Positions 39,593 through 52,424 of a DNA stretch of 64,000 bases are shown here, piece by piece; the first letter of the stretch is position 1, and each line of letters begins with the position of its first letter. Both the position numbers and the translations under genes were made by a program. Below the pieces are notes generated by a model. That model ran no database searches and was not told where the DNA came from. It saw nothing but the letters and a program-made list of their open reading frames with translations. Origin of the DNA: Methylophaga marina (GTDB lineage Bacteria > Pseudomonadota > Gammaproteobacteria > Nitrosococcales > Methylophagaceae). The stretch spans positions 744,001 to 808,000 of the forward strand of contig NZ_AP027741.1 in NCBI RefSeq assembly GCF_030296755.1, read 5' to 3'.

Positions 39593-40474
39593 TCAGGCTT
39601 TACCTTGCTTAGCCATACCGTAGGCAGCAATAAAAATAAGCGCTCCGCCTAACCACTCTGTTTGGCTCATTTGTTCACTAGTCAACCACCAGGCAGAAAT
39701 AGCCGCCACCACCAGTTCAGATAACATCAAAATGGCTGAGCGAAAAACCGGCATTCTTGCCAGGCCATATAACACGGCTATCGTCATCGCGGTAAAACAA
39801 AGACCACCAAAAACCATGACCGCCAGCCATAAATTGAGGCTGATGTCCGGTACACTTGATTGCTGTAGAACTAATACAAGCCCTGCCACCATAACCACGC
39901 CCCAGTAAACAATGGTGGTTTTGACTTCCATAGCCACATCAGCAAGTTTGCGACTTAATACGTTATTCACTGAAAACATAAATCCCGCAAACAAAGCTAA
40001 CCAGTCAGCCATATCGTTTGGCCAGGGCAGACCTATTTCCGGGTGCCATAACATGATCATCGTGCCTGACATCGCCACAATGATCATCAGCATGGAAACT
40101 CGCGAAATTTTTTCGCCTAACCACCAACGACTCAACAACACTGACCAGAGTGGAGACAGATAGAAGAGCAACATGACACGCATCACTTCACCGTGAGTCA
40201 GTGCCACTAAGAAAGCAATATTTGTAACGCCTGCTGCGGCAGCAAGCGCCCAAAGACTGGGGGGCCAGTGACCTGAAAAATCTTTTTTCTGTTTGAACAA
40301 CATGGCTGTGGCCACGATGGCGGCAGCAAAATACATGAGTAAGGTAGACCAAACAACAGGAAGACCTTGTTGTTCGAGTAAGCGCATTGGATACCAAATC
40401 AATCCCCACATAGCTGAGGAAAATAAGATACCGAGTACAGCAAGATTAAATTGTTGGTTATTCGTATTTGTCAT
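39593..40474 (-). CDS. EamA/DMT family transporter
   Basis: A 293-residue inner-membrane protein with about ten helices in two EamA repeats (FNLAVLGILFSSAMWGLIWYPMRLLEQ at the start, then MADWLALFAGFMFSVNNVLSRKLADV in the second). It belongs to the drug/metabolite transporter superfamily; the substrate is unknown. I use the ATG at 40474 (MTNTNNQQ) rather than an ATG 57 bases earlier, whose extension is hydrophilic and unlike the family. Divergent from dapC. Confidence 0.87.
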   Translation of the reverse strand: MTNTNNQQFNLAVLGILFSSAMWGLIWYPMRLLEQQGLPVVWSTLLMYFAAAIVATAMLFKQKKDFSGHWPPSLWALAAAAGVTNIAFLVALTHGEVMRVMLLFYLSPLWSVLLSRWWLGEKISRVSMLMIIVAMSGTMIMLWHPEIGLPWPNDMADWLALFAGFMFSVNNVLSRKLADVAMEVKTTIVYWGVVMVAGLVLVLQQSSVPDISLNLWLAVMVFGGLCFTAMTIAVLYGLARMPVFRSAILMLSELVVAAISAWWLTSEQMSQTEWLGGALIFIAAYGMAKQGKA

Positions 40475-40547
40475 GGCACACCTTATAACACGAGATTGCT
40501 CCAACCCGTTATAATGGTCTGATTTTTTCACTCATTCATTTGGAATT

Positions 40548-41741
40548 ATGAATCCAGAACTGGCAAAACTGCACCCCTATCCTTTCGAAAAGTTGGCTCA
40601 ACTGAAACAAGGCTGTGTGCCACCTGAAGACAAGGCACATATTGCACTATCGATAGGTGAACCCAAACACCCAACACCAGGATTTATTACCGAAGCTGTC
40701 ATCACCCATCTTCATGGACTGTCATCCTACCCTACCACCGCTGGTACGAATGAGCTGCGTCATGCCATAGCGACTTGGTTGAATAATAGATTCAATCTGG
40801 ATGGGCATATCAACGCTATGACTCAGGTGCTTCCGGTAAATGGTACGCGTGAAGCTTTATTTGCGTTTGCTCAAGCAGTCATTGATCGCGACCAAGCACC
40901 ATTAGTTTTGATGCCTAATCCGTTTTATCAGATTTATGAAGGTGCGGCTATTTTGGCAGGTGCAGAACCTTATTATATGAATTGTTCTGCCAGTCACGAC
41001 TTTATTCCAGATTTTGATGCGATTAGTGAAGATACCTGGCAACGTTGTCAGTTAATCTATATCTGCAGCCCAGGCAATCCAACTGGCGCTGTCATTGATA
41101 AAGCGACTCTGACACGTTTAATTGAGTTGGCACATCAGTATGATTTCGTGATTGCTTCTGATGAATGTTATTCCGAAATCTACCCCGATGAAACGAACCC
41201 GCCCGTCGGTTTATTAGAAGCAGCTTATGCGGCTGGTTATACTGACATGAGCCGCTGTGTGGTTTTTCATAGTCTGTCGAAACGTTCGAACGCCCCTGGC
41301 TTGAGAAGTGGTTTTGTCGCTGGTGATGCTGATATTCTGAAACAATTTCTACGCTACCGCACGTACCATGGTTGCTCAATGCCACCTGCTACACAGGCGG
41401 CCTCCATCACCGCCTGGAATGATGAAGATCATGTTGTTCATAATCGTGAGCTGTATCTGGAAAAATTTAATGCGGTATTAGAAATTTTAGCGCCAGTCAT
41501 GTCAGTATCTATGCCGCAAGCCGGTTTCTATTTGTGGGCTGAAACGCCCATTGCTGATACGGCATTTGCCAGACAATTATTTGAACAACAAAATGTCACC
41601 GTTTTACCAGGCACCTATCTGGGCCGTGACACCACTGCGGGCAATCCTGGTTCGAATCGTATTCGCATGGCGTTGGTTGCCCCGCTGGAAGAATGTATAG
41701 AAGCTGCACATCGCATTCGCAGCCTTATTGAAAGTTTATAA
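40548..41741 (+). CDS. dapC: Succinyldiaminopimelate transaminase DapC
   Basis: A 397-residue fold-type I PLP aminotransferase. Seen: the start MNPELAKLHPYPFEKLAQL, the SIGEPKHPTP motif, ICSPGNPTGAVI, ASDECYSEIY and the PLP-lysine block FHSLSKRSNAPGLRSGF. These match the DapC type, converting succinyl-amino-ketopimelate to succinyl-DAP with glutamate. It is followed by dapD, yffB and dapE, which confirms the lysine/DAP assignment. Confidence 0.94.
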   Translation: MNPELAKLHPYPFEKLAQLKQGCVPPEDKAHIALSIGEPKHPTPGFITEAVITHLHGLSSYPTTAGTNELRHAIATWLNNRFNLDGHINAMTQVLPVNGTREALFAFAQAVIDRDQAPLVLMPNPFYQIYEGAAILAGAEPYYMNCSASHDFIPDFDAISEDTWQRCQLIYICSPGNPTGAVIDKATLTRLIELAHQYDFVIASDECYSEIYPDETNPPVGLLEAAYAAGYTDMSRCVVFHSLSKRSNAPGLRSGFVAGDADILKQFLRYRTYHGCSMPPATQAASITAWNDEDHVVHNRELYLEKFNAVLEILAPVMSVSMPQAGFYLWAETPIADTAFARQLFEQQNVTVLPGTYLGRDTTAGNPGSNRIRMALVAPLEECIEAAHRIRSLIESL

Positions 41742-41764
41742 TTAAATCAATGGAGTAGACACCA

Positions 41765-42586
41765 ATGAGTGATATTCAACAAATTATTGAAGAGGCGTTT
41801 GAACGCCGTGCTGAGATTAACCCTGCTAACGCTGATAGCAATGTCAGAAATGCAGTCAATGAAGCATTAACGATGCTGGATAACGGTTCAGCTCGTGTTG
41901 CAGAAAAACAAAATGGTGACTGGGTTGTTAACCAATGGCTGAAAAAAGCGGTTTTATTATCATTCCGTTTAAATGACAACAAAATCATGCCTGGTGCAGA
42001 AACCAACTATTTCGATAAAGTTGATCCTAAATTTGCCAGCTTCAATGAAGATGACTTTAACAAAGCCGGTGTGCGTGTCGTACCACCAGCAGCGGTTCGT
42101 CGCGGATCATACATCGCCCCTGGCGTTGTTTTGATGCCCTCTTATGTCAATATTGGTGCTTATGTTGATTCTGGCACCATGGTCGATACTTGGGCGACGG
42201 TAGGTAGCTGCGCTCAAATCGGTAAAAACGTTCACCTTTCTGGTGGCGTAGGTATCGGTGGTGTATTAGAACCCTTACAAGCCGGCCCGACCATCATTGA
42301 AGACAACTGCTTCATTGGTGCACGTTCTGAAGTTGTTGAAGGTGTTGTTGTGGAAGAAGGCTCAGTTATCTCAATGGGCGTTTATATTGGTCAAAGCACA
42401 AAAATCTTCAACCGTCTGACCGGCGAAATCACTTATGGTCGCATCCCTGCAGGTTCTGTTGTGGTGTCTGGTAACTTACCTTCTAAAGATGGTTCATACA
42501 GCCTGTACTGTGCGGTTATCGTTAAACAAGTTGACGAAAAAACACGTGGCAAAGTGGGTATTAATGAATTATTACGTGATATCTAG
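41765..42586 (+). CDS. dapD: Tetrahydrodipicolinate N-succinyltransferase DapD
   Basis: A 273-residue trimeric left-handed beta-helix enzyme that succinylates tetrahydrodipicolinate for DAP and lysine synthesis. The helical N-terminus ([17 protein letters not shown]), the hexapeptide repeats around residues 110-230 ([28 protein letters not shown], then [29 protein letters not shown]) and the C-terminal [20 protein letters not shown] are diagnostic. A terminator follows. Confidence 0.97.
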
Positions 42587-42608
42587 TATCATTTTACTCA
42601 GATAAGAT

Positions 42609-42645
42609 TAGGGGTGAGCAAATCGTTATTGCTCACCCCTTTTTA
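42609..42645 (+). terminator. Rho-independent terminator after dapD
   Basis: AGGGGTGAGCAA pairs with TTGCTCACCCCT, followed by TTTTTATTTTT. This strong hairpin lies 23 bases past the dapD stop and should separate dapC-dapD from yffB-dapE. Confidence 0.93.
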
Positions 42646-42673
42646 TTTTTAGCCTTATATACATGTGACTACA

Positions 42674-43012
42674 ATGATTCTCTACGGTATTAAAAACTGC
42701 GATTCGGTCAAAAAAGCACGACGTTGGCTTGAGGCACATTCTATTGACTATATGTTTCACGATTTTCGTCAGCAAGGTCTTGAAGAGAGCACCGTCAAAG
42801 AATGGCTTCAGTCCGTTGACTGGGAGACGTTGTTGAATAAACGAGGTACAACCTGGCGGAAACTGGATGACCCACGTAAGGACAATCTGGATGAAAAAAC
42901 CGCGATTGAACTCATGTTGGAAAACCCTACTCTGATTAAGCGCCCCGTTTTGGTCAACGACTCAACGACCATAGTCGGATTTAAAGAAGATGTTTATCAA
43001 CAATTGGTTTAA
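42674..43012 (+). CDS. yffB: YffB/ArsC-like (Spx family) protein
   Basis: About 112 residues of the ArsC/Spx thioredoxin-fold family. MILYGIKNCDSVKKARRWLEAH carries a single Cys in the active-site position, and the TTWRKLDDP and LIKRPVLVN motifs are typical of YffB rather than true arsenate reductases. YffB commonly precedes dapE in gammaproteobacteria, as here. I start at the ATG at 42674; a GTG at 42665 would add three residues. No clear ribosome site. Function unknown, possibly a glutathione-dependent thiol reductase. Confidence 0.88.
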   Translation: MILYGIKNCDSVKKARRWLEAHSIDYMFHDFRQQGLEESTVKEWLQSVDWETLLNKRGTTWRKLDDPRKDNLDEKTAIELMLENPTLIKRPVLVNDSTTIVGFKEDVYQQLV

Positions 43013-43142
43013 CTTAGATTTTCTTAGCAGAGTTTTGCCCGCTATCATTCCAGGTATCGGCTACGGTAATCACCAATACGGCGTTGATGTCATTATGTTA
43101 GGTGGTGCCAGTTTATCATTAACAATCGGTATTCGTTTATAA
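42990..43142 (+). pseudogene. Possible outer-membrane beta-strand remnant
   Basis: A 50-residue reading frame, partly overlapping the end of yffB, ends with IIPGIGYGNHQYGVDVIMLGGASLSLTIGIRL. The last part alternates polar and non-polar residues as does the closing strand of outer-membrane barrel proteins. No upstream coding part is seen. It may be the leftover of a deleted gene or a chance frame; weak support. Confidence 0.25.
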
Positions 43143-44294
<1,152 letters not shown>

Positions 44295-44297
44295 GCA

Positions 44298-44594
44298 ATG
44301 CCGTTGATTCACGCACATCAAAAACGACACTACCTCTATGTGATAGCAACCATTGTGCTGCTGTTACAGTCGTTTGCTGTCTGGCATGATGCTGAACACG
44401 CATTCCATCATGCAGAAGCGCAATGTGAGCGCCTAAATGCCATCAGTCATTTCCCGCTTGCTGACGTAGCTACTGAAGTTAGCCTTCATCAGTCTCGAGC
44501 CACACTCAGTCTTGAGGTGGACTCTCCTGTAATAACACTGCCGTTCGCGCAGCGCCAATCTTATCTTATCCGCGCCCCACCATTTTTTTCATAG
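44298..44594 (+). CDS. Small His-rich membrane-anchored protein of the metal-uptake cluster
   Basis: A 98-residue protein with one N-terminal hydrophobic segment (YLYVIATIVLLLQSFAVW), then WHDAEHAFHHAEAQCE, which has four His and a Cys suited for metal binding. It is similar in layout to the short 'zinc chaperone' (DUF2607-like) proteins found before zinc transport genes; I am not certain of the family. It starts three bases after dapE and precedes the porin-like and ZnuA-like genes, so a role in periplasmic metal handling is inferred. Confidence 0.6.
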   Translation: MPLIHAHQKRHYLYVIATIVLLLQSFAVWHDAEHAFHHAEAQCERLNAISHFPLADVATEVSLHQSRATLSLEVDSPVITLPFAQRQSYLIRAPPFFS

Positions 44595-44680
44595 CCTTAC
44601 CTGATCTCTCTATTTTAATCATGCTACCGATCCGCGAACGTCTGATCTGTAGCTGTAGCTTATGGCTATGAGGAAAGTTT

Positions 44681-46054
44681 ATGAAAAGCAAAAAACTGCT
44701 TGTGTTGCTGATGACAGCTGCACTGAGCCCGGTATCACCTGCATTTGCTGGCGATATTGATGATCTTAAACAAGAAATCGCAAAAATGCGTGCTGATTAT
44801 GAGCAACGTATCCAACAACTTGAAGAACGACTATCTGAAGCAGAAGCGAATACACAGACTGTTGCCAATGAAGTCGCAATGATTCCTGAAGCACCAGCTC
44901 CTGTTGCTTCACCCAATAATAGCAATACCTTTAATCCAGCTATCAGTATGGTGTTAAACGGTACGTTCAGCCAGTACCAGAACAATGCTGAGGATTACGC
45001 TCTGGATGGGTTTAATGTCCAAGGCGAGGGCGGTTTAGCGGAAGAAGGCTTCTCTCTTGGAGAAAGTGAATTAACCGTCAGCTCAAACATCGATCAACTC
45101 TTTTATGGTCAGGCGACTTTGGCTGTACATGAGCATGAAGGTGAAACAGAGCTGGAAATAGAAGAAGCATTTATTGAAACTCTGGGTTTAGGCAATGGCA
45201 TGACCATTCGTGCTGGTCGCTATTTTGCCCCTATTGGCTACTTAAATGAACGTCACGTACATGCCTGGAATTTTGCTGACGCGCCTTTGATTTATCGTGG
45301 CTTATTTGGCAACCAACTTTCAACTGATGGTGTGAAGCTATCTTATCTGTTACCAACAGACTACATGTTTGAAGTCGGTACCAGCGTTGGTAATGGTGAT
45401 AGCTATCCTGGAAGTGGTGAACACAGTGGCATCGGTGACTGGCTGGTCTATGCGAAAACAGGTGGTGATATTGGTATAGAAAGCAGCTGGCAGGCCGGTA
45501 TATCTCACTGGCGTGCAAGCCCTGATGATCGTTCTTATGATGGTGGACACCATCATGGTCATGATGACGAAGAAGAAAGTTCAGCCGTGTTCAGTGGTGA
45601 CACTGATATCACCAATTTATCGTTGGTATACAAATGGGCACCGAATGGTAATTTCCGTCAGGAAAACCTGACCTTGATCGGTGAGTTTATGTATCTGCAT
45701 GATGATGGCGATATCAGTCATGGCAGTGACGAGTTTGCTCGTTACGATGGCAAACAATATGGCGGCTATGTAGAAGGTATTTATCAATTTAATCCGCAAT
45801 GGCGCTCCGGCCTGCGTTATGACTGGTTAGGTAGCAAGCACCGTGCGTCGGATGAAGAATTGCTAGCGGATGCGGGTCTAGAAGGTGGTAGAAACCATCC
45901 TCAACGTAGCAGTGCAATGGTGGAATACCTCCCAAGTGAATTCAGTCGTATTCGTGCACAAATTAATCACGATCAATCATACGACGATGATGATTGGCAG
46001 ATGATACTGCAATATACCGTCAGCCTTGGCGCTCATGGCGCGCATCAATACTAG
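44681..46054 (+). CDS. Outer-membrane porin-like protein with coiled-coil N-terminus, probable metal uptake
   Basis: A 457-residue exported protein with signal peptide (to about residue 23), a coiled coil (IDDLKQEIAKMRADYEQRIQQLEERLSEAEA, about 24-60), then a beta-barrel region. Barrel features: repeated amphipathic strands such as NGMTIRAGRYFAPIGYLNERH and a last strand WQMILQYTVSLGAHGAHQY. A loop near residues 286-305 carries a His/Asp/Glu-rich patch (GGHHHGHDDEEESS), which could capture zinc. It lies before the ZnuA-like gene (nine-base gap), so it probably delivers metal across the outer membrane. Confidence 0.82.
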   Translation: MKSKKLLVLLMTAALSPVSPAFAGDIDDLKQEIAKMRADYEQRIQQLEERLSEAEANTQTVANEVAMIPEAPAPVASPNNSNTFNPAISMVLNGTFSQYQNNAEDYALDGFNVQGEGGLAEEGFSLGESELTVSSNIDQLFYGQATLAVHEHEGETELEIEEAFIETLGLGNGMTIRAGRYFAPIGYLNERHVHAWNFADAPLIYRGLFGNQLSTDGVKLSYLLPTDYMFEVGTSVGNGDSYPGSGEHSGIGDWLVYAKTGGDIGIESSWQAGISHWRASPDDRSYDGGHHHGHDDEEESSAVFSGDTDITNLSLVYKWAPNGNFRQENLTLIGEFMYLHDDGDISHGSDEFARYDGKQYGGYVEGIYQFNPQWRSGLRYDWLGSKHRASDEELLADAGLEGGRNHPQRSSAMVEYLPSEFSRIRAQINHDQSYDDDDWQMILQYTVSLGAHGAHQY

Positions 46055-46063
46055 GAGTTCTAC

Positions 46064-46957
46064 ATGAAAGCGTTTATTTTTACTTTTTTATTTGTAATGA
46101 GCTCGCCAGTATGGGCGCAACTTTCAGTGTTTGCCTGTGAGCCGGAATGGGCCTCTTTAACTAAAGAGTTAGGTGGTGACGATGTGTCTGTTTTCAGTGC
46201 AACCAGAGGTTTACAGGATCCGCACTATATTCAGGCACGTCCAAGTTTGATTGCTAAAGCACGCCAGACTGATTTATTGGTATGTACAGGCGCTGAGTTA
46301 GAAACAGGCTGGTTGCCATTACTACAACGCAAAGCGGGTAATCCTAATATCCAAAGAGGTGCTGAAGGTTACTTTATGGCTTCTGATTATATTCGTTTAC
46401 TGGATAAACCCGTCATGGTTGATCGTAGCCAAGGTGATGTTCACGCATCTGGTAATCCGCATATTCAGACAAGTCCTGAGAACATCATCAACGTTGCTAA
46501 AGCGTTGACTCAACGTCTCAAGAAACGTGATCCTGAAAATGCTAATAACTATGAACAGCGCTGGCAAGATTTTGAACAACGCTGGCAAGCGGCAATGAAC
46601 CAGTGGCAGCAAAAAGCAGCTCCCCTCAAAGGTGTGCCTATTGCTGTTCAACATAAAAACTGGATTTATCTAGTGAACTGGTTAGGGTTAAATGAAGTAG
46701 CTGTATTGGAAGCTAAACCTGCTGTACCACCGACTGTAAATCAGTTGCAGTCAGTAGTTGAAAAGCTGAAGCAAACACCAGCAAAAATGGTGATTGTCGC
46801 AGCCTATCAATCATCAAGAGCGACCGACTGGTTAGTAGATAAAACCGGTATCACGAAAGTGGTACTGCCTTTCACTGTTGGCGGTAATGAACAAAGTACA
46901 AATTTATTTGAACTGTACGACAACACCATCGATTTACTTCTAGATGGTGCTAAATGA
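46064..46957 (+). CDS. Metal (probably zinc) ABC transporter substrate-binding protein, ZnuA-like
   Basis: A 297-residue cluster A-I periplasmic binding protein with a signal peptide (cleaved near VWA-Q). Metal ligands: His in GLQDPHYIQARPS (near residue 53), His in ASGNPHIQTSP and His in IAVQHKNWIYLVNWL, as in ZnuA; the fourth ligand would be an acidic residue near the end. The usual acidic-histidine loop is absent. It overlaps the following permease gene by four bases. Confidence 0.9.
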   Translation: MKAFIFTFLFVMSSPVWAQLSVFACEPEWASLTKELGGDDVSVFSATRGLQDPHYIQARPSLIAKARQTDLLVCTGAELETGWLPLLQRKAGNPNIQRGAEGYFMASDYIRLLDKPVMVDRSQGDVHASGNPHIQTSPENIINVAKALTQRLKKRDPENANNYEQRWQDFEQRWQAAMNQWQQKAAPLKGVPIAVQHKNWIYLVNWLGLNEVAVLEAKPAVPPTVNQLQSVVEKLKQTPAKMVIVAAYQSSRATDWLVDKTGITKVVLPFTVGGNEQSTNLFELYDNTIDLLLDGAK

Positions 46958-47718
46958 ACCTGATCAATCTTGATTGGTCGCTAATATTGCCTGCCCTCGT
47001 GGCAGGCATGTTAGTTCTGACAACACATGTGCCGTTGGGGCAAGAAGTACTGAAGCGTGGCATTATCTTCATCGATCTTGCTATTGCCCAAATGGCCGCA
47101 CTGGGAGTAATGGCCGCCACCATTTTTATCGGCGATATGCACGGGCCCTGGTTACAAATCAGTGCTGCAGGTAGCGCTCTCACCGCCTCTGTTTTGGTGC
47201 TGTGGTTAGAGAAACGGTATCCTCATATTGTAGAAGCCTTGATCGGCTTATTATTTATTCTGGCGGCCAGTGGTGGAATATTACTGGTTAGTCATGCACC
47301 CCATAGTGATGAGTTACTTCACGATCTATTAGTGGGACAGATTTTATGGGTGACATCGTCTCAATTGATATGGGTTGCTCTGCTTTATGCTGCCTTGTTA
47401 ATTGTCTGGTTCACCATGCGAGCACAGCGTAGCTGGCTTTTTTATATTATCTTTTCATTCACCGTCACGGCCTCTGTGCAATTAGTCGGGGTATATCTGG
47501 TCTTTGCCAGTTTAATTTTGCCAGCCCTTGCCAGCCGCGGTTTTGAGAAACCCCATCATAAGCTCTTGCTTGGTTATGGTATTGGCTTTTTGGGCTATTC
47601 CTTTGGTCTGATATTGGCATTATTGTTTGATGTACCAATGGGAGCGATGACCGTCTGGACCTTATTCGTACTCGTGGTAATAAGTCGCTTTGTTGTGAAG
47701 TGGCTAAATAGGCACTAA
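46954..47718 (+). CDS. Metal ABC transporter permease, ZnuB-like
   Basis: A 254-residue inner-membrane permease with about eight helices of the ABC-3 (zinc/manganese) family: IIFIDLAIAQMAALGVMAA and LVGVYLVFASLILPALASRGF are family segments. It overlaps the substrate-binding gene by four bases, so the two are translated together. No ATP-binding gene follows; the next gene is an unrelated membrane protein. The ATPase must come from elsewhere in the genome. Confidence 0.9.
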   Translation: MNLINLDWSLILPALVAGMLVLTTHVPLGQEVLKRGIIFIDLAIAQMAALGVMAATIFIGDMHGPWLQISAAGSALTASVLVLWLEKRYPHIVEALIGLLFILAASGGILLVSHAPHSDELLHDLLVGQILWVTSSQLIWVALLYAALLIVWFTMRAQRSWLFYIIFSFTVTASVQLVGVYLVFASLILPALASRGFEKPHHKLLLGYGIGFLGYSFGLILALLFDVPMGAMTVWTLFVLVVISRFVVKWLNRH

Positions 47719-47758
47719 GTTTGGTAGATTGTTTCAAAACATCAATCAGGAAAGCAGC

Positions 47759-48103
47759 ATGACCGAATCAACACAAGCCAGTCAGAACACAGTTAAACTG
47801 GTGTACTTATTATTTATCGCTAATATTCTTATTCAGTTTTTAGGCTTTGTTGCAGTCGTGATTGCCTATATTAATAAAGACGATGCTGCGGCATGGTTAC
47901 AGTCACACTATCAGTTTCAGATTCGAACATTCTGGATAGGGTTTCTATATTTGTTTATCGGCGTGCTCTTCGCGTTCTTTTTAGTCGGCTATATGGTCTT
48001 ACTGTTCTGGGTTGTCTGGGTCGTGGTGCGTTGCGTGAAAGGTATGAAATATCTGGATCAACAGCAGCCGCATCCTAATCCAACCAGCTGGCTTTTTGGC
48101 TGA
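47759..48103 (+). CDS. DUF4870-like small membrane protein
   Basis: A 114-residue protein with three membrane helices. TVKLVYLLFIANILIQFLGFVAVVIAYI, HYQFQIRTFWIGFLYLFIG and the later VVVRCVKGMKYLDQQQPHPNP resemble DUF4870 or Tic20-like proteins. I use the ATG at 47759, behind CAGGAAAG, rather than a start 30 bases earlier. The function is unknown. It follows the metal permease by 40 bases and is ended by a terminator. Confidence 0.78.
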   Translation: MTESTQASQNTVKLVYLLFIANILIQFLGFVAVVIAYINKDDAAAWLQSHYQFQIRTFWIGFLYLFIGVLFAFFLVGYMVLLFWVVWVVVRCVKGMKYLDQQQPHPNPTSWLFG

Positions 48104-48111
48104 GAAATGAC

Positions 48112-48135
48112 AAGACCGGGAGGCCCCGGTCTTTT
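48112..48135. terminator. Terminator between DUF4870-like and SDR genes
   Basis: AAGACCGGG and CCCGGTCTT around a four-base loop, followed by TTTT on the plus strand, sit between two convergent genes. Confidence 0.85.
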
Positions 48136-48140
48136 AGGTT

Positions 48141-48899
48141 TTATTGGCGATGAAATGCCATTGGACCATTCGCTTCATGTGTCGGCATAACTTCAATCGT
48201 CGTCACATTAACATGCTCTGGCGTATTCACCAGCCACCATACCGTGTTAGCAATATCTTCAGCATCTAAGGCGCGGGTGCCTTCATAGACTTTATCTGCA
48301 CGAGCTTCGTCCGCTTTAAAACGCACTCTAGAAAACTCCGTTTCGGCATTGCCCGGTTCCACATTCGTCACTCGCACATTCGTGCCTAATAAATCAGCCC
48401 GTGTCGCCAATGAGAATTGTCTGACAAAGGCTTTAGTACCACAGTAAACATTCCCCCCAGGATAAGGCCAATTCCCTGCTACTGAGCCGATATTGATGAT
48501 GTAACCTGATTGACGCTCCGTCATCATCGGTAAAACTGTGCGGGTACAGTAAAGTAAACCTTTGATGTTGGTATCCACCATTTTTTCCCAATCATCTAAA
48601 TTGGTTTCGTGGGCAGGTTCTAAACCTAGTGCCAAACCCGCATTATTTAATAACACATCAATTTTTTTAAATGGCTCTGACAAACTATTAATCGCAGATT
48701 CGACGGCTTTTCTGTCGGTCACATCAAAGCAGCAGGTCGCCACTTTATCTTTACCACCCAGCTCCTGCTGAAGATCGTCTAACCGTTGCTGACGTCGACC
48801 AGTCAGAATTAATTGCCAGCCATGACTGGCAAATAGTCTGGCACAAGCTTCCCCAAACCCAGAGGTAGCGCCGGTAATCATGATCGTCTTACTTGACAT
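48141..48899 (-). CDS. YdfG-type NADP-dependent short-chain dehydrogenase
   Basis: A 252-residue SDR. Cofactor motif ITGATSGFGEACA (near residue 7), NNAGLAL, the catalytic Ser in INIGSVAG and the YCGTKAFVRQFS tyrosine-lysine motif are intact. The C-terminus (IEVMPTHEANGPMAFHR) resembles E. coli YdfG (3-hydroxy acid/serine dehydrogenase). Compare the other SDR in this window, which lacks its Lys. Followed by the 48112-48135 terminator. Confidence 0.9.
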   Translation of the reverse strand: MSSKTIMITGATSGFGEACARLFASHGWQLILTGRRQQRLDDLQQELGGKDKVATCCFDVTDRKAVESAINSLSEPFKKIDVLLNNAGLALGLEPAHETNLDDWEKMVDTNIKGLLYCTRTVLPMMTERQSGYIINIGSVAGNWPYPGGNVYCGTKAFVRQFSLATRADLLGTNVRVTNVEPGNAETEFSRVRFKADEARADKVYEGTRALDAEDIANTVWWLVNTPEHVNVTTIEVMPTHEANGPMAFHRQ

Positions 48900-48924
48900 G
48901 CAATCGACTCCTTATTTTGATTAA

Positions 48925-49782
48925 TCAGGCACCTTCTGAAAACACAATGGTACGTCGACCATTGATAATAATGCGGTGCTCAATATGTGCTTTCACGGCT
49001 CTCGCCAGCACAATACGTTCAATATCTTTTCCCATCATTACCAAATCTTGCGGACTGTTATCATGCTGAACATGTTGTATATCTTGGGCAATAATCGGTC
49101 CCTCATCTAACTCAGCTGTCGCATAGTGAGCTGTAGCACCAATAATTTTAACGCCACGCTCATAAGCCTGATGATACGGCTTCGCCCCTTGGAAGGCTGG
49201 CAAGAACCCGTGGTGAATATTAATAATCCGACCAGAAAACTCGGTGACAAAATCCTCTGATAAAATTTGCATGTAGCGCGCCATGACAATCAAATCAATA
49301 TCAAACTCTGCCAGCAAACGTTTTATCTCAGCTTCTTGTGCTTGTTTGGTTTCAGCCGTTATCGGTAAATGATAGAACGGTTTATCAAACTGGCGCGCCA
49401 TATCCTCTAAATCACGATGATTACCAATGATTAGAGGGATATCACATTTCAGCTCACCTTCTAATTCTCTGAGTAACAAATCGTATGGGCAGTGAGAAGC
49501 TCTTGTCACCAGTAAAGCGACTCGATAAGGCTCTTCGCTGTAGCGAACGGACCAGTTTAAGTCGATAGTGCTTGCAAACTGGCTGAACTCGGCTTCCAGT
49601 TTTTGATGATTAAAATGACCATCATCTTCCAGCTTAATTCGCATGAAATACTGGCCAACTTCAGTATCTGTATATTGCTGGCAGTGCAAAATATTAAATT
49701 GTCTTTCGGCAAAAAAGCTGGTGATACCAGCGACTAAACCTTTTTGGTCTTTACACTGAATAAGGAAAACAATGGCGCTCAT
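48925..49782 (-). CDS. purU: Formyltetrahydrofolate deformylase
   Basis: A 285-residue enzyme releasing formate from 10-formyl-tetrahydrofolate. An ACT domain (residues 1-80, starting IVFLIQCKDQKGLVAGI) is followed by a formyltransferase-fold domain with LVTRASHCPYDLLLR, IIGNHRD, MARYMQILS and the active-site INIHHGFLPAFQGAKPY plus IIGATAHYATAELDEGPIIAQ. It supplies formate for purine synthesis or balances one-carbon folates. Confident call. Confidence 0.96.
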   Translation of the reverse strand: MSAIVFLIQCKDQKGLVAGITSFFAERQFNILHCQQYTDTEVGQYFMRIKLEDDGHFNHQKLEAEFSQFASTIDLNWSVRYSEEPYRVALLVTRASHCPYDLLLRELEGELKCDIPLIIGNHRDLEDMARQFDKPFYHLPITAETKQAQEAEIKRLLAEFDIDLIVMARYMQILSEDFVTEFSGRIINIHHGFLPAFQGAKPYHQAYERGVKIIGATAHYATAELDEGPIIAQDIQHVQHDNSPQDLVMMGKDIERIVLARAVKAHIEHRIIINGRRTIVFSEGA

Positions 49783-49841
49783 GAGGGTTTCCTAAGAAAA
49801 TAATACGGAAAAAAGCTAAATCCTAGCACTGTCACAAGGCT

Positions 49842-50192
49842 TTATGAATATTCATCATATTTGTCATTACGACCTTTGACTTTATCTCGTGGGTATTTAG
49901 CTGCATTTTTTTGCATTTTGCTTTTAATGACTTGATTCAAGTCGATGTCTAAGTCATGACAAAGATAAGCGAGATAAACAGCAACATCGGCTATTTCGTC
50001 CTCTAAATCTTCACGTTTATCGGAGGCTAATCGTTGTTGAACTTCTTCAGCACTCTTCCATTGAAACCATTCCAGTAACTCAGAGGCTTCAATAGATAAT
50101 GAGATGGCGATATCTTTGGGATTATGAAACTGCTCCCAATCTCTTTCACGGCGAAACTCAATAAGCTGCTTAAATAATTCCGGCTCAATCAT
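49842..50192 (-). CDS. MazG-like nucleotide pyrophosphohydrolase
   Basis: A 116-residue all-alpha NTP pyrophosphatase of the MazG/RS21-C6 type. The metal-binding ExxE motif is SIEASELLEWFQW, and EDEIADVAVYLAYL supplies the second E/D pair. It probably cleaves non-canonical or excess dCTP-like nucleotides (housekeeping). The gene overlaps the preceding alpha/beta hydrolase gene by eight bases. Confidence 0.88.
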   Translation of the reverse strand: MIEPELFKQLIEFRRERDWEQFHNPKDIAISLSIEASELLEWFQWKSAEEVQQRLASDKREDLEDEIADVAVYLAYLCHDLDIDLNQVIKSKMQKNAAKYPRDKVKGRNDKYDEYS

Positions 50193-50949
50193 TCTGCAAG
50201 AACTCCTCTACCACCTTTTTAAACTGTTGTGGTCGTTCAGCCTGAACCCAATGACCTGCCTTTTCTATGCCATTAAATTCTGCATGAACAAACTGTGAAG
50301 AAATCTGTTGCCGATCCTGCTCAGTGACATAGTCTGATAATTCACCATAAACAAATAGGCTTGGCATGGTGAATGTTATGTCCTCACACACGGCAGCCAT
50401 TAACTCTGGATAGTTCGCTTTTAACGCAGGCAGATTAATCCGCCATTGAAAAGCCTCGTCTTCAGAACTTAAATTCATCAGTAGAAACTGACGAACAGCC
50501 TTATCAGGAATAGATTGAGCCAATGCATCATCGATTTCACCTCGGCGGGCAAACTGAGACAAATCGAGCGCCATCATGGCATCCATCAGTGGTGTATGCG
50601 CACTGAAGTATTGACGTGGCGCTATATCTACCACAATTAATTTAGATACTTGCTCTGGATACATGCCCGCAAACATCATCGCTACTTTGCCACCAAGAGA
50701 GTGACCAAGAATAGATACTTGCCCTAACTCCATGGCCTCACACAACTCTTTGATATCTTCAGCCATGACAGTGAAATTCTGCTCATCGCTGTGTGGGGAA
50801 CGACCATGATTGCGTAAATCAACGCTAATAACCCGATAAAAACGTGAAAAATACTTTGCCATACTGCGCCAGTTATCCGCAGAGCCAAATAAGCCGTGGA
50901 TAATAATTAAAGGCGTACCTTCACCACTTTCTTGATAATGCAATTTCAT
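50185..50949 (-). CDS. YbfF-like alpha/beta-fold hydrolase
   Basis: A 254-residue esterase-type hydrolase. The oxyanion segment IIIHGLFGSADNWRSMAKYF, the nucleophile elbow ILGHSLGGKVAMMFA (Ser near residue 83) and the final His in IEKAGHWVQAERPQQF form a full catalytic set. The overall match is to E. coli YbfF, an esterase of uncertain natural substrate. It overlaps the MazG-like gene by eight bases and is divergent from the small gene at 51004. Confidence 0.9.
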   Translation of the reverse strand: MKLHYQESGEGTPLIIIHGLFGSADNWRSMAKYFSRFYRVISVDLRNHGRSPHSDEQNFTVMAEDIKELCEAMELGQVSILGHSLGGKVAMMFAGMYPEQVSKLIVVDIAPRQYFSAHTPLMDAMMALDLSQFARRGEIDDALAQSIPDKAVRQFLLMNLSSEDEAFQWRINLPALKANYPELMAAVCEDITFTMPSLFVYGELSDYVTEQDRQQISSQFVHAEFNGIEKAGHWVQAERPQQFKKVVEEFLQND

Positions 50950-51003
50950 TGATAGCTTGTTGAAACGTTATAATCGAACAATTTAAATAAACTGGAGCCT
51001 GAT

Positions 51004-51177
51004 GTGGAAGACGAAACAATTTTGGTGATGCTAGTGAAACAATATGCCGATAAATTTGGCATTACCTTCAGCTCAAAATATCTTGATGATCCTGATAAGA
51101 AACAATTACTGATCACACTGATACAAGAAGCCAATGCGGGTAAGCGCGGTCCAGTCACTGACGACGATCTACAATAA
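51004..51177 (+). CDS. Small acidic conserved-looking protein (57 residues)
   Basis: This is a 57-codon reading frame from a GTG with a GGAG ribosome site seven bases upstream (50994-50997). The product begins with GTG-encoded Met, then EDETILVMLVKQYADKFG, and ends KRGPVTDDDLQ. It is soluble and probably helical, with regular codon usage. The divergent start (55 bases from the hydrolase gene) and the terminator directly after its stop both support it as a true gene. I do not recognise a family. Confidence 0.6.
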   Translation: MEDETILVMLVKQYADKFGITFSSKYLDDPDKKQLLITLIQEANAGKRGPVTDDDLQ

Positions 51178-51206
51178 AAAAAGCCACCGAAAGGTGGCTT
51201 TTTTCT
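51177..51206. terminator. Bidirectional terminator between the 57-residue gene and fabB
   Basis: AAAAAAGCCACC and GGTGGCTTTTTT around a GAAA tetraloop form a perfect stem with runs on both sides. Confidence 0.92.
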
Positions 51207-52424
51207 TTAATCATCCAGTTTCTCGAACACCAGACAGGCATTGGTTCCACCAAAGCCAAAACTGTTCGACATTACTGTCGTCAGTCCAGCGTTATCCACG
51301 CGTTCCCGAAGAATAGGCATGCCTTCCGCTTCGGGATCTAATGTTTCAATATTGGCTGATGCAGCAAGAAAATCATTTTCTAGCATCAACAGACTATAGA
51401 TGGCTTCCTGAACACCGGCAGCACCTAAAGAATGACCTGATAATGATTTTGTTGAGCCAACGGCAGGCATATCCGCGCCAAATGTCTTTTTAATAGCGCC
51501 TAGCTCGGCTAAATCACCTACAGGCGTACTGGTACCATGTGCATTGATGTATTGCACTTTGCCGCGACTCGTAGACATCGCCAGCTGCATACAACGCATC
51601 GCGCCTTCACCTGATGGGGCCACCATATCATAACCATCTGATGTAGCACCGTAACCGGTCAGTTCAGCATAGATTTTGGCACCACGTGCTTTGGCATGTT
51701 CGTATTCTTCGAGTACGAGTACACCACCGCCACCAGCGATAACAAAACCATCACGGTCAGCATCGTAGGCACGCGATGCTTTTTCTGGCGTATCATTATA
51801 TTTGGTGGATAAAGCGCCCATTGCATCAAATAAAGAGCTCATTGACCAATGTTCTTCTTCCCCACCACCAGCAAAGACAATATCTTGTTTGCCTAGTTGA
51901 ATTTGCTCCATAGCCGTACCGATACAGTGTGCACTGGTCGCACAAGCGGATGACATAGAGTAATTGACCCCTTTAATTTTGAAAGGCGTGGCAAGACAAG
52001 CTGAGGTTGTACTACCCATCACTTGGGTAACGCGATAAGGCCCAATACGTTTTAAACCTTTTTCACGCAGGATGTCGGCTGCTTCAACTTGATTCGAAGA
52101 GGAAGCACCACCGGATCCCATAATAAGACCAGTTCGGATATTCGACACCTGCTCCTCGCTTAACCCCGCATCGGCGATCGCTTGCTCCATGGCGATGTAG
52201 GCATAAGCTGCAGCATCGCCCATGAAACGTAATGTTTTACGGTCTATATATTCTTTAAAATCAATATCGATGGTACCCGCAACATGGCTACGAAAGCCCA
52301 TATCCGCATATTCTTGTTTGAAGCGAATACCTGAGCGGCCATGGCGAAGAGACTCTGTCACTGTTTGGGCATCAAGTCCTAAGCAAGAAGTGATACCTAA
52401 CCCTGTAACGACAACACGTTTCAT
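51207..52424 (-). CDS. fabB: Beta-ketoacyl-ACP synthase I FabB
   Basis: A 405-residue condensing enzyme for unsaturated fatty acid elongation. The catalytic Cys is in [15 protein letters not shown] (near residue 163), the His pair in [12 protein letters not shown] (near 298) and [11 protein letters not shown] (near 333), and the C-terminus has [16 protein letters not shown]. All are as in E. coli FabB. It follows fabA by nine bases on the same strand; together they form the anaerobic unsaturated-fatty-acid pair. Confidence 0.97.

Follow-up and report, generated by a model that had tools for sequence, protein, structure and literature searches.

A conserved cassette with a ZnuA-like binding protein, a ZnuB-like permease and no ATPase in Methylophaga marina: a candidate route of zinc uptake

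Introduction

Zinc importers of the ZnuABC type are ATP-binding cassette (ABC) transporters in which a periplasmic binding protein (ZnuA), a permease of the ABC-3 family (ZnuB) and an ATPase (ZnuC) are combined, and permeases of this family normally require their ATPase. Here, we describe a gene cassette of Methylophaga marina that encodes homologues of the first two of these proteins and lacks the third. It lies in a stretch of 64,000 nucleotides, called the window below, which covers positions 744001-808000 of a 3.11-Mb single-contig genome, and it consists of four genes on the plus strand that code for a small membrane protein, an outer-membrane beta-barrel, a ZnuA-like binding protein and a ZnuB-like permease. 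No description of such a cassette was found in the open-access literature searched.

What the cassette has in common with ZnuABC is a homologous binding protein and a homologous permease, which score above the Pfam cut-offs for ZnuA (PF01297, 143.5 bits, cut-off 29) and ABC-3 (PF00950, 71 bits, cut-off 20.1), respectively; the sole match of the permease to a solved structure is to ZnuB (9oko, E 9.7e-8). It differs from ZnuABC in having neither an ATPase nor a cytoplasmic segment of the permease, in adding the barrel and the small protein, and in carrying D-L-x-x-A-Q where the ZnuABC permease has GDxxxH. The NCBIfam equivalog scores stay far below the ZnuABC cut-offs, with 41.9 of 284 bits for the permease and 47 of 268 bits for the binding protein. 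The best-scoring NCBIfam models are those of another system, AztABCD (AztC, 64 bits; AztB, 54.5 bits), again below the respective cut-offs of 350 and 280, and here too the difference is that the cassette holds no ATPase; a distant cassette at locus L145 reaches 80.2 bits with AztB.

In one study, ZnuK and ZnuL are presented as TonB-dependent outer-membrane metal receptors (PMC4176598). The role that we propose for the barrel, passage of metal across the outer membrane, is like that of such ZnuD/ZnuK-type zinc receptors, whereas the barrel itself is a marginal match to the BBP2 porin family and matches no TonB-receptor family. Zinc uptake without an ABC ATPase is known from ZevAB and from ZIP/ZupT, which belong to other families; neither turned up among the Pfam matches of the cassette proteins. 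Solitary BioY and NikMN/CbiMN are vitamin or metal permeases that work without their ATPase; their S-component fold is unrelated and they have no periplasmic binding protein, whereas the ancestor of the cassette would be an ABC-3 importer with a binding protein. Judging from sequence comparison, we see about an even chance that the cassette is a conserved four-part uptake route, most likely for zinc, which descends from a ZnuABC-type ancestor and does not depend on an ATPase.

The cassette and its distribution

The genes and sites of the cassette, in window coordinates, are as follows (aa, amino acids; ORF, open reading frame).

44298..44594, plus strand: small membrane protein of 98 aa with His and Cys residues and the C-terminus IRAPPFFS (ORF; motif-sharing ORFs in relatives)
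44681..46054, plus strand: outer-membrane beta-barrel of 457 aa with an N-terminal coiled coil (Pfam BBP2, 26.8 bits; homologues in the loci)
45254..45262, plus strand: HxH of the barrel (His192, His194) within GYLNxxHxH (invariant in 58/58)
45542..45574, plus strand: GGHHHGHDDEE loop of the barrel, residues 288-298, varying among homologues (sequence)
46034..46051, plus strand: C-terminal HGAHQY of the barrel (His452, His455; both His in 58/58)
46064..46957, plus strand: ZnuA-like periplasmic binding protein of 297 aa (Pfam ZnuA, 143.5 bits)
46954..47718, plus strand: ABC-3-type permease of 254 aa, without an ATPase (Pfam ABC-3, 71 bits; 97 loci)
47026..47106, plus strand: permease signature HVPLGxxVLxRGIIFIDLAIAQxAALG, residues 25-51, with GDxxxH as its canonical counterpart (alignment)
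47410..47439, plus strand: permease junction, residues 153-162, where canonical permeases are about 19 residues longer (DEELAxxEGV segment; alignment)
47527..47571, plus strand: putative ATPase-docking (coupling) loop of the permease, residues 192-206, under relaxed constraint (identity; role by analogy to BtuC)

The genes of the binding protein and the permease share a 4-base overlap. The list of ORFs of 50 aa or more for positions 40000-52000 contains neither an ATPase gene nor a remnant of one, and an identical, ATPase-free gene order is found in three further Methylophaga records (L022-L024); the nearest named relatives are M. sulfidovorans, M. aminisulfidivorans and a metagenome-assembled genome of Methylophaga, whose permeases are 91-98% identical. 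The original prediction for this DNA, a four-gene run that includes a ZnuA-like and a ZnuB-like gene and no ATPase, is borne out. It had also pointed to a frameshifted ATPase gene nearby as the finding that would speak against it; such a gene was looked for, and we reject it on the strength of the ORF list and of the same ATPase-free order in the Methylophaga relatives.

Of 369 genomes sampled from the same GTDB class, 94 contain a permease relative with an E value of 1e-10 or better, and a phylum-wide search at E 1e-30 gave relatives in 44 of 398 genomes. The loci compared number 97 (L022-L024, L055-L114, L145-L161, L182-L197 (phylum-wide) and L260), and they come from several searches and do not form one random sample. 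Barrel, binding protein and permease are all present in 86 of the 97, and several of the other loci are contig-end cuts or relics. In the first 63 loci (L022-L024 and L055-L114), homologues of the barrel lie ahead of the permease in 61 and homologues of the binding protein are found in all 63. The genes had been predicted to form one unit, with a check on co-occurrence of the porin with ZnuA/ZnuB-type genes suggested, and the 86 complete loci agree with that expectation. At L187 no barrel was detected, L183 has the binding protein and the permease only, and L196 is cut; L150 (6675-8376) holds a relic permease whose N-terminal half is gone, flanked by an asnB-like gene on one side and the gene of an FbpC-like ATPase on the other.

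Barrel, binding protein and permease are also consecutive in Vibrio campbellii (L259), and a full distant cassette (L148) is borne by genome G184, the permease of which has an E value above 1e-25. A plasmid of Sulfurovum mangrovi, a member of the Campylobacterota, carries the cassette as well (L260), and the 10.6 kb covered there include no ATPase gene. The annotation there reads hypothetical, hypothetical, zinc ABC transporter substrate-binding protein and metal ABC transporter permease; with the genes labelled as if they made up a usual zinc ABC transporter, a ZnuABC system may be counted in reconstructions where none exists.

Linked and unlinked ATPases

An ABC ATPase gene on the same strand, at most 3 kb upstream or 2 kb downstream, is found in three of the 97 loci, 81 of which have the full flank. 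The FetA-like ATPases at L109 and L112 were rejected as partners because a FetB-like gene follows each, and the FbpC-like ATPase at L150 because the permease there is the truncated relic, which leaves no plausible dedicated ATPase in the available flanks of the 97 loci. At L061 and L070, the genes zur, znuC and znuB are located upstream in divergent orientation, with the ATPase gene 3.6-4.0 kb off on the other strand. For the host itself, searches for a separate znuC and for Zur had been recommended along with the original prediction, and both gave a hit: znuC, znuB and znuA stand in a row at 530.8-533.4 kb, and a Zur gene lies at 2713.9 kb.

For the wider survey we set aside five of the 94 genomes, in which the permease E value lies above 1e-25 (G117, G184, G205, G254, G284), which leaves 89 cassette genomes. 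Another ABC-3 permease is present in 46 of these and none was seen in 43, a split made by hand: the best E value is 1e-40 or better in the 46 and between 1e-15 and 1e-4 in 40 of the 43, and the remaining three (G122, G132, G230) have a single match at E 1e-24 to 1e-29 that was taken as the cassette permease. None here means no ABC-3 match better than E 1e-15 apart from what we take to be the cassette permease; a third, weak ABC-3 match of unassigned identity occurs in G043, G062, G213, G233 and G345.

The ZnuC profile was run on 35 of the 43 cassette-only genomes, the other eight being under 90% complete (five) or distant (three). It gave at most 140 bits in 33 of the 35, that is, scores not above background, as the profile yields 170-344 bits in 10 of 10 ZnuB-bearing genomes and 115-130 bits in all five control genomes that lack both the cassette and ZnuB. 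G113, which is counted among the 33, has just a relic of the cassette. The two exceptions, G062 and G123, carry znuA-znuC without an adjoining znuB, in G062 at a contig end, so that ZnuB may be missing from those assemblies. With about half of the cassette genomes apparently lacking a zinc importer that could lend its motor, the metal may move without ATP.

ATPases of other importers were considered as well. A FecCD/BtuC importer is absent from nine of the 35 genomes (G133, G144, G150, G174, G204, G210, G262, G316, G335), a count that sets aside G113 and G123 and in which the weak FecCD match of G144 and G204 is the cassette permease itself. BtuD, considered as a shared ATPase, may act as one where BtuC exists, but these nine genomes speak against it as a general partner. 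In G262, a single contig that is 100% complete, the neighbourhoods of 37 of the 40 ABC_tran matches were read, and each of the 37 comes with a membrane partner of its own, forms a fusion with one, or corresponds to LptB, SufC or an ABC-F-like protein; of the remaining three, two share a frame of 1022 aa that is presumably UvrA, and the third scores under the cut-off. The outcome is the same for the 16 ATPases in frames under 400 aa of G080, also a single contig.

The permease: what changed and what stayed

The conservation counts for the 60 permeases, 59 binding proteins and 58 barrels omit the near-identical loci L022-L024 and short or split ORFs. Between two conserved glycines, each of the 60 cassette permeases lacks 18-22 residues relative to canonical ones, which are of full length in 13 of 13 cases; the segment that is gone, DEELAxxEGV, is cytoplasmic and lies ahead of the sixth helix. 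The loop of residues 192-206, which follows a conserved LIxPA and presumably holds the coupling helices by analogy to BtuC, has a pairwise identity of 0.247 among the 60 cassette permeases, as against 0.556 for the whole protein, whereas in canonical permeases (n=13) the same loop is as well kept as the remainder (0.468 versus 0.466 overall). Loop identity hardly varies with the genome, being 0.254 where another ABC-3 permease is present (n=33) and 0.246 where it is not (n=27), and both groups share one deletion; this likeness makes pairing with ZnuC look unlikely even in Methylophaga.

Other parts of the protein are under strong constraint. Residues 25-51 have a pairwise identity of 0.82, and the residues invariant in 60/60 include H25, G29, V32, G36, I37, F39, D41, A45, Q46, A48, G51, E94, G98, G128, Q129, L131, W132 and Q176; in a set of nine diverse permeases H25, D41, Q46, E94 and W132 are kept and Q129 is not. 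The canonical metal residues D-x3-H do not occur: the aspartate (D41) stands one place earlier and Q46 takes the place of the histidine in all 60, and the pattern D-[LIT]-x-x-[AG]-Q is found in 95 of 95 permeases scored. In the canonical MntBC-A of B. anthracis, D47, H51 and D94 are reported as essential (PMC8487065). We take E94, whose position is Asp in the three canonical sequences aligned, as the counterpart of that D94.

The barrel, the binding protein and the small protein

The barrel of the window marginally reaches the cut-off of PF07642 (BBP2 porin; 26.8 bits, cut-off 26.2) and that of L061 scores 26.6 bits with BBP2; the barrels of L145 and L260 gave no BBP2 match, and no Pfam match to a TonB-receptor plug or receptor domain was seen in the barrel at E up to 1. 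Each of the 58 barrels compared has His192, His194, His452 and His455, and the remaining letters of the C-terminal HGAHx(F/Y) are almost constant among them. In the wide set, the HxH pattern and the C-terminal HxxH are each present in 85 of 87 barrels. The invariant histidines would be the metal sites. The original prediction had put the zinc site of the barrel elsewhere, at GGHHHGHDDEE, but this is a variable loop, His-rich in some homologues and not so in many others.

In the binding protein, His54, His127, His133 and His197 are invariant in 59 of 59 sequences, which upholds the earlier assignment to the zinc-type, ZnuA-like proteins, and Cys25 and Cys74 are each present in 58 of the 59. We take a His at the third ligand position to be typical of zinc-type ZnuA, with Glu there in manganese-type PsaA. 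The barrel-less copy at L183 (3976-5729) encodes a binding protein that has lost ligand histidines (DPN and NPY for DPH and NPH), which possibly has a different ligand or role.

The small protein of the window has a hydrophobic stretch followed by WHDAEHAFHHAEAQC, and neither Pfam nor NCBIfam gave a match for it at E values of up to 1; a resemblance to DUF2946 may be noted, but no Pfam match to DUF2946 was found for the small proteins of the window, L022 and L260. Of 73 barrel-bearing loci, 58 have an ORF of this kind just upstream of the barrel, which codes for a hydrophobic stretch and two or more His and ends in R[AGD][PS]P. Among the 2567 ORFs of 70-220 aa that these loci contain in all, 77 have the C-terminal motif. 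H-x(2-9)-H is found in 57 of the 58 small proteins and CxxC in 37. Thus the small His-rich membrane protein noted at the outset is a recurrent member of the cassette, and is better defined by H-x(2-9)-H, a frequent CxxC and R[AGD][PS]P than by richness in His.

Zinc-linked neighbours and Zur

Zinc-linked genes are neighbours of several cassettes: zur-znuC-znuB beside L061 and L070, a homologue of Zur beside L108 and L151, and COG0523 or DUF1826 genes near L112 and L191. A Zur box matching at least 11/13 positions occurs in 5 of 61 upstream regions versus 15 of 1882 other sequence windows, and upstream of the Methylophaga cassettes the only 11/13 match lies inside dapE; sequence support for control by Zur extends to a minority of the loci, and general control seems unlikely. 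Genomes were called positive for a Zur-like protein by a score pattern read off five genomes that have a weak Fur-family match beside ZnuC or ZnuB. In six of 34 cassette-only genomes there is a single Fur-family protein, and G082 and G311 have Fur next to the cassette; at L063 the neighbouring gene was considered as Zur and rejected, as it is Fur (G082, 150.9 bits).

Proposed mechanism and alternatives

In the route that we propose, metal would enter through the dedicated barrel, bound by the invariant histidines of HxH and of the C-terminal HxxH, and the barrel would hand it to the periplasmic binding protein with its four invariant histidines. The binding protein would deliver the metal to the permease, which would let it run down the free-metal gradient into the cytoplasm, where tight binders hold free zinc very low; the small His/Cys membrane protein may help in metal handover or in the assembly of the complex. 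What the sequences show is the set of genes and how well it is conserved, the invariant residues, the lack of an ATPase and the loss of the cytoplasmic segment; the metal, the direction of transport, its independence of ATP and every transport step are what we infer, with zinc as the best guess for the metal. As to its history, we consider it a little less than evenly probable that an ancient ABC-3 branch lost its ATPase and gave rise to a metal permease that needs its binding protein but no ATP. This permease would belong to a fixed cassette with a metal-binding barrel of its own and the small His/Cys membrane protein, a single unit for passive metal flow from outside to the cytoplasm, which would take the place of ZnuABC in many Proteobacteria and is present in Campylobacterota as well.

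If this is true, the cassette is a natural ABC importer minus its motor that has retained its binding protein, and it bears on the share of import that is due to ATP as compared with affinity and gradient. It could explain zinc-type metal uptake in those cassette bacteria that have no ZnuABC, and would provide for specific entry across the outer membrane by means other than a TonB receptor. The cassette would be a new class of uptake system if ATP independence were shown.

The alternative that deserves most attention is that the permease pairs with ZnuC where this is present, or with another unlinked ABC ATPase, and is part of an ordinary importer with scattered genes, as the original prediction of a borrowed ATPase had it. 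The presence of znuC, znuB and znuA elsewhere in the host, of another ABC-3 permease in 46 of the 89 cassette genomes, and the usual need of this permease family for an ATPase all fit such a partnership. Yet cassettes persist in genomes without ZnuB and ZnuC: no ZnuC-like ATPase stands out from background in 33 of the 35 cassette-only genomes searched, nine have no FecCD either, and no unpartnered ABC ATPase was seen among the 37 of 40 matches read in G262. Moreover the docking loop is equally relaxed whether or not another ABC-3 permease is present, and the cytoplasmic deletion is found in 60/60. We regard borrowing as unlikely, though a serious contender, and pairing with ZnuC as a weaker reading than the ATPase-independent route. 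A more trivial version of a hidden motor, in which znuC was lost from the assembly or frameshifted beside the cassette, might draw on the fact that the assembly does contain frame-split genes (znuA at L011, a TonB receptor at L012); three Methylophaga records and, in the flanks available, nearly all other loci are equally free of an ATPase, and these relatives already refute an artefact, which we consider scarcely credible. A different way to do without a motor would be to do without transport: the permease might be a docking or signalling protein for the loaded binding protein, with the barrel and the binding protein serving periplasmic supply or storage of metal. The replacement of the canonical D-x3-H by D41 and Q46 in 60/60 and the lack of an energy source in the cassette are what such delivery or sensing would lead one to expect. 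The third acidic position, however, stays acidic (E94, 60/60) and several regions of the permease are highly conserved; together with this acidic residue, the invariant polar H25, Q129 and Q176 (60/60) suggest a working path, so that we hold a pure delivery or sensing role to be quite improbable.

The cassette may also carry another metal than zinc, such as iron, nickel, copper or manganese. The regulatory evidence leans in this direction, as no Zur box at threshold is found in 56 of 61 loci, 29 or 30 of 34 cassette-only genomes have no Zur-like protein, six of the 34 have a single Fur-family protein, and a Fur gene adjoins the cassettes of G082 and G311. The third ligand position of the binding protein, on the other side, is a zinc-type His in 59 of 59, and Zur, ZnuC or COG0523 genes adjoin several cassettes; another metal therefore seems rather unlikely to us.

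An ATPase-independent zinc route also has to contend with observations that do not favour it. Distant cassettes L145 and L146 retain a longer segment between the fifth and sixth transmembrane helices, so that the deletion is not universal, which suggests that it postdates the loss of the linked ATPase. The docking or coupling role of loop 192-206 is putative, being placed by analogy, and the AlphaFold models are unusable (pLDDT 41 for the permease, 30 for the barrel). Canonical MntBC-A is reported to be inactive when the Walker B motif of its ATPase is mutated (PMC8487065), so that an ATPase-free relative would need a changed mechanism. The ATPase roles in G262 and G080 were assigned from sequence and neighbours, in G080 for frames under 400 aa, and G082 has an FbpC-type ATPase without a visible partner, for which reason we do not claim G082 to be free of unpartnered ATPases; an ATPase shared from another ABC class could still serve the permease. 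The absence of ZnuB is patchy, as same-genus genomes of G022 and G316 have it, and some absences may therefore be assembly gaps or recent losses. As to zinc, the E. coli-type Zur box is missing at threshold from 56 of the 61 loci, and a Zur-like protein is present in four, perhaps five (G204), of the 34 cassette-only genomes.

Neighbouring genes and the host's own zinc genes

Directly upstream of the Methylophaga cassette lies dapE (window 43164-44294), a gene of lysine synthesis whose product is a zinc enzyme; at L055 dapE is also near the cassette, there on the other strand. Downstream of the permease there is a DUF4870-like gene (47729-48103; 21.9 bits, under the cut-off of 25), and past it a terminator-like hairpin (48112-48133).

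In the host's canonical set, znuA is split between two frames (L011 6400-7400, about 532.4-533.4 kb). The TonB receptor at L012 9210-11122 is split as well, as are, by reading, btuC- and mtnP-like genes in L013, and the assembly may thus carry sequencing errors. Beside znuCBA, at L011 551-2469, stand genes for a putative LolD-like ATPase, a putative DUF3299-like protein and a putative His-rich DUF2796-like protein, and these neighbours presumably resemble the zinc systems ZrgABCDE and PA4063-4066. The Zur gene of the host sits in a cluster (L012 5081-14712) that we read as MerC-like, DksA, COG0523, DUF1826, Zur and an ABC-2 ATPase, followed by the TonB receptor, two ABC-2 permeases and a second COG0523 gene. 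In our reading this cluster recalls znuK-znuGHI of Caulobacter, which is reported to be Zur-regulated (PMC4176598).

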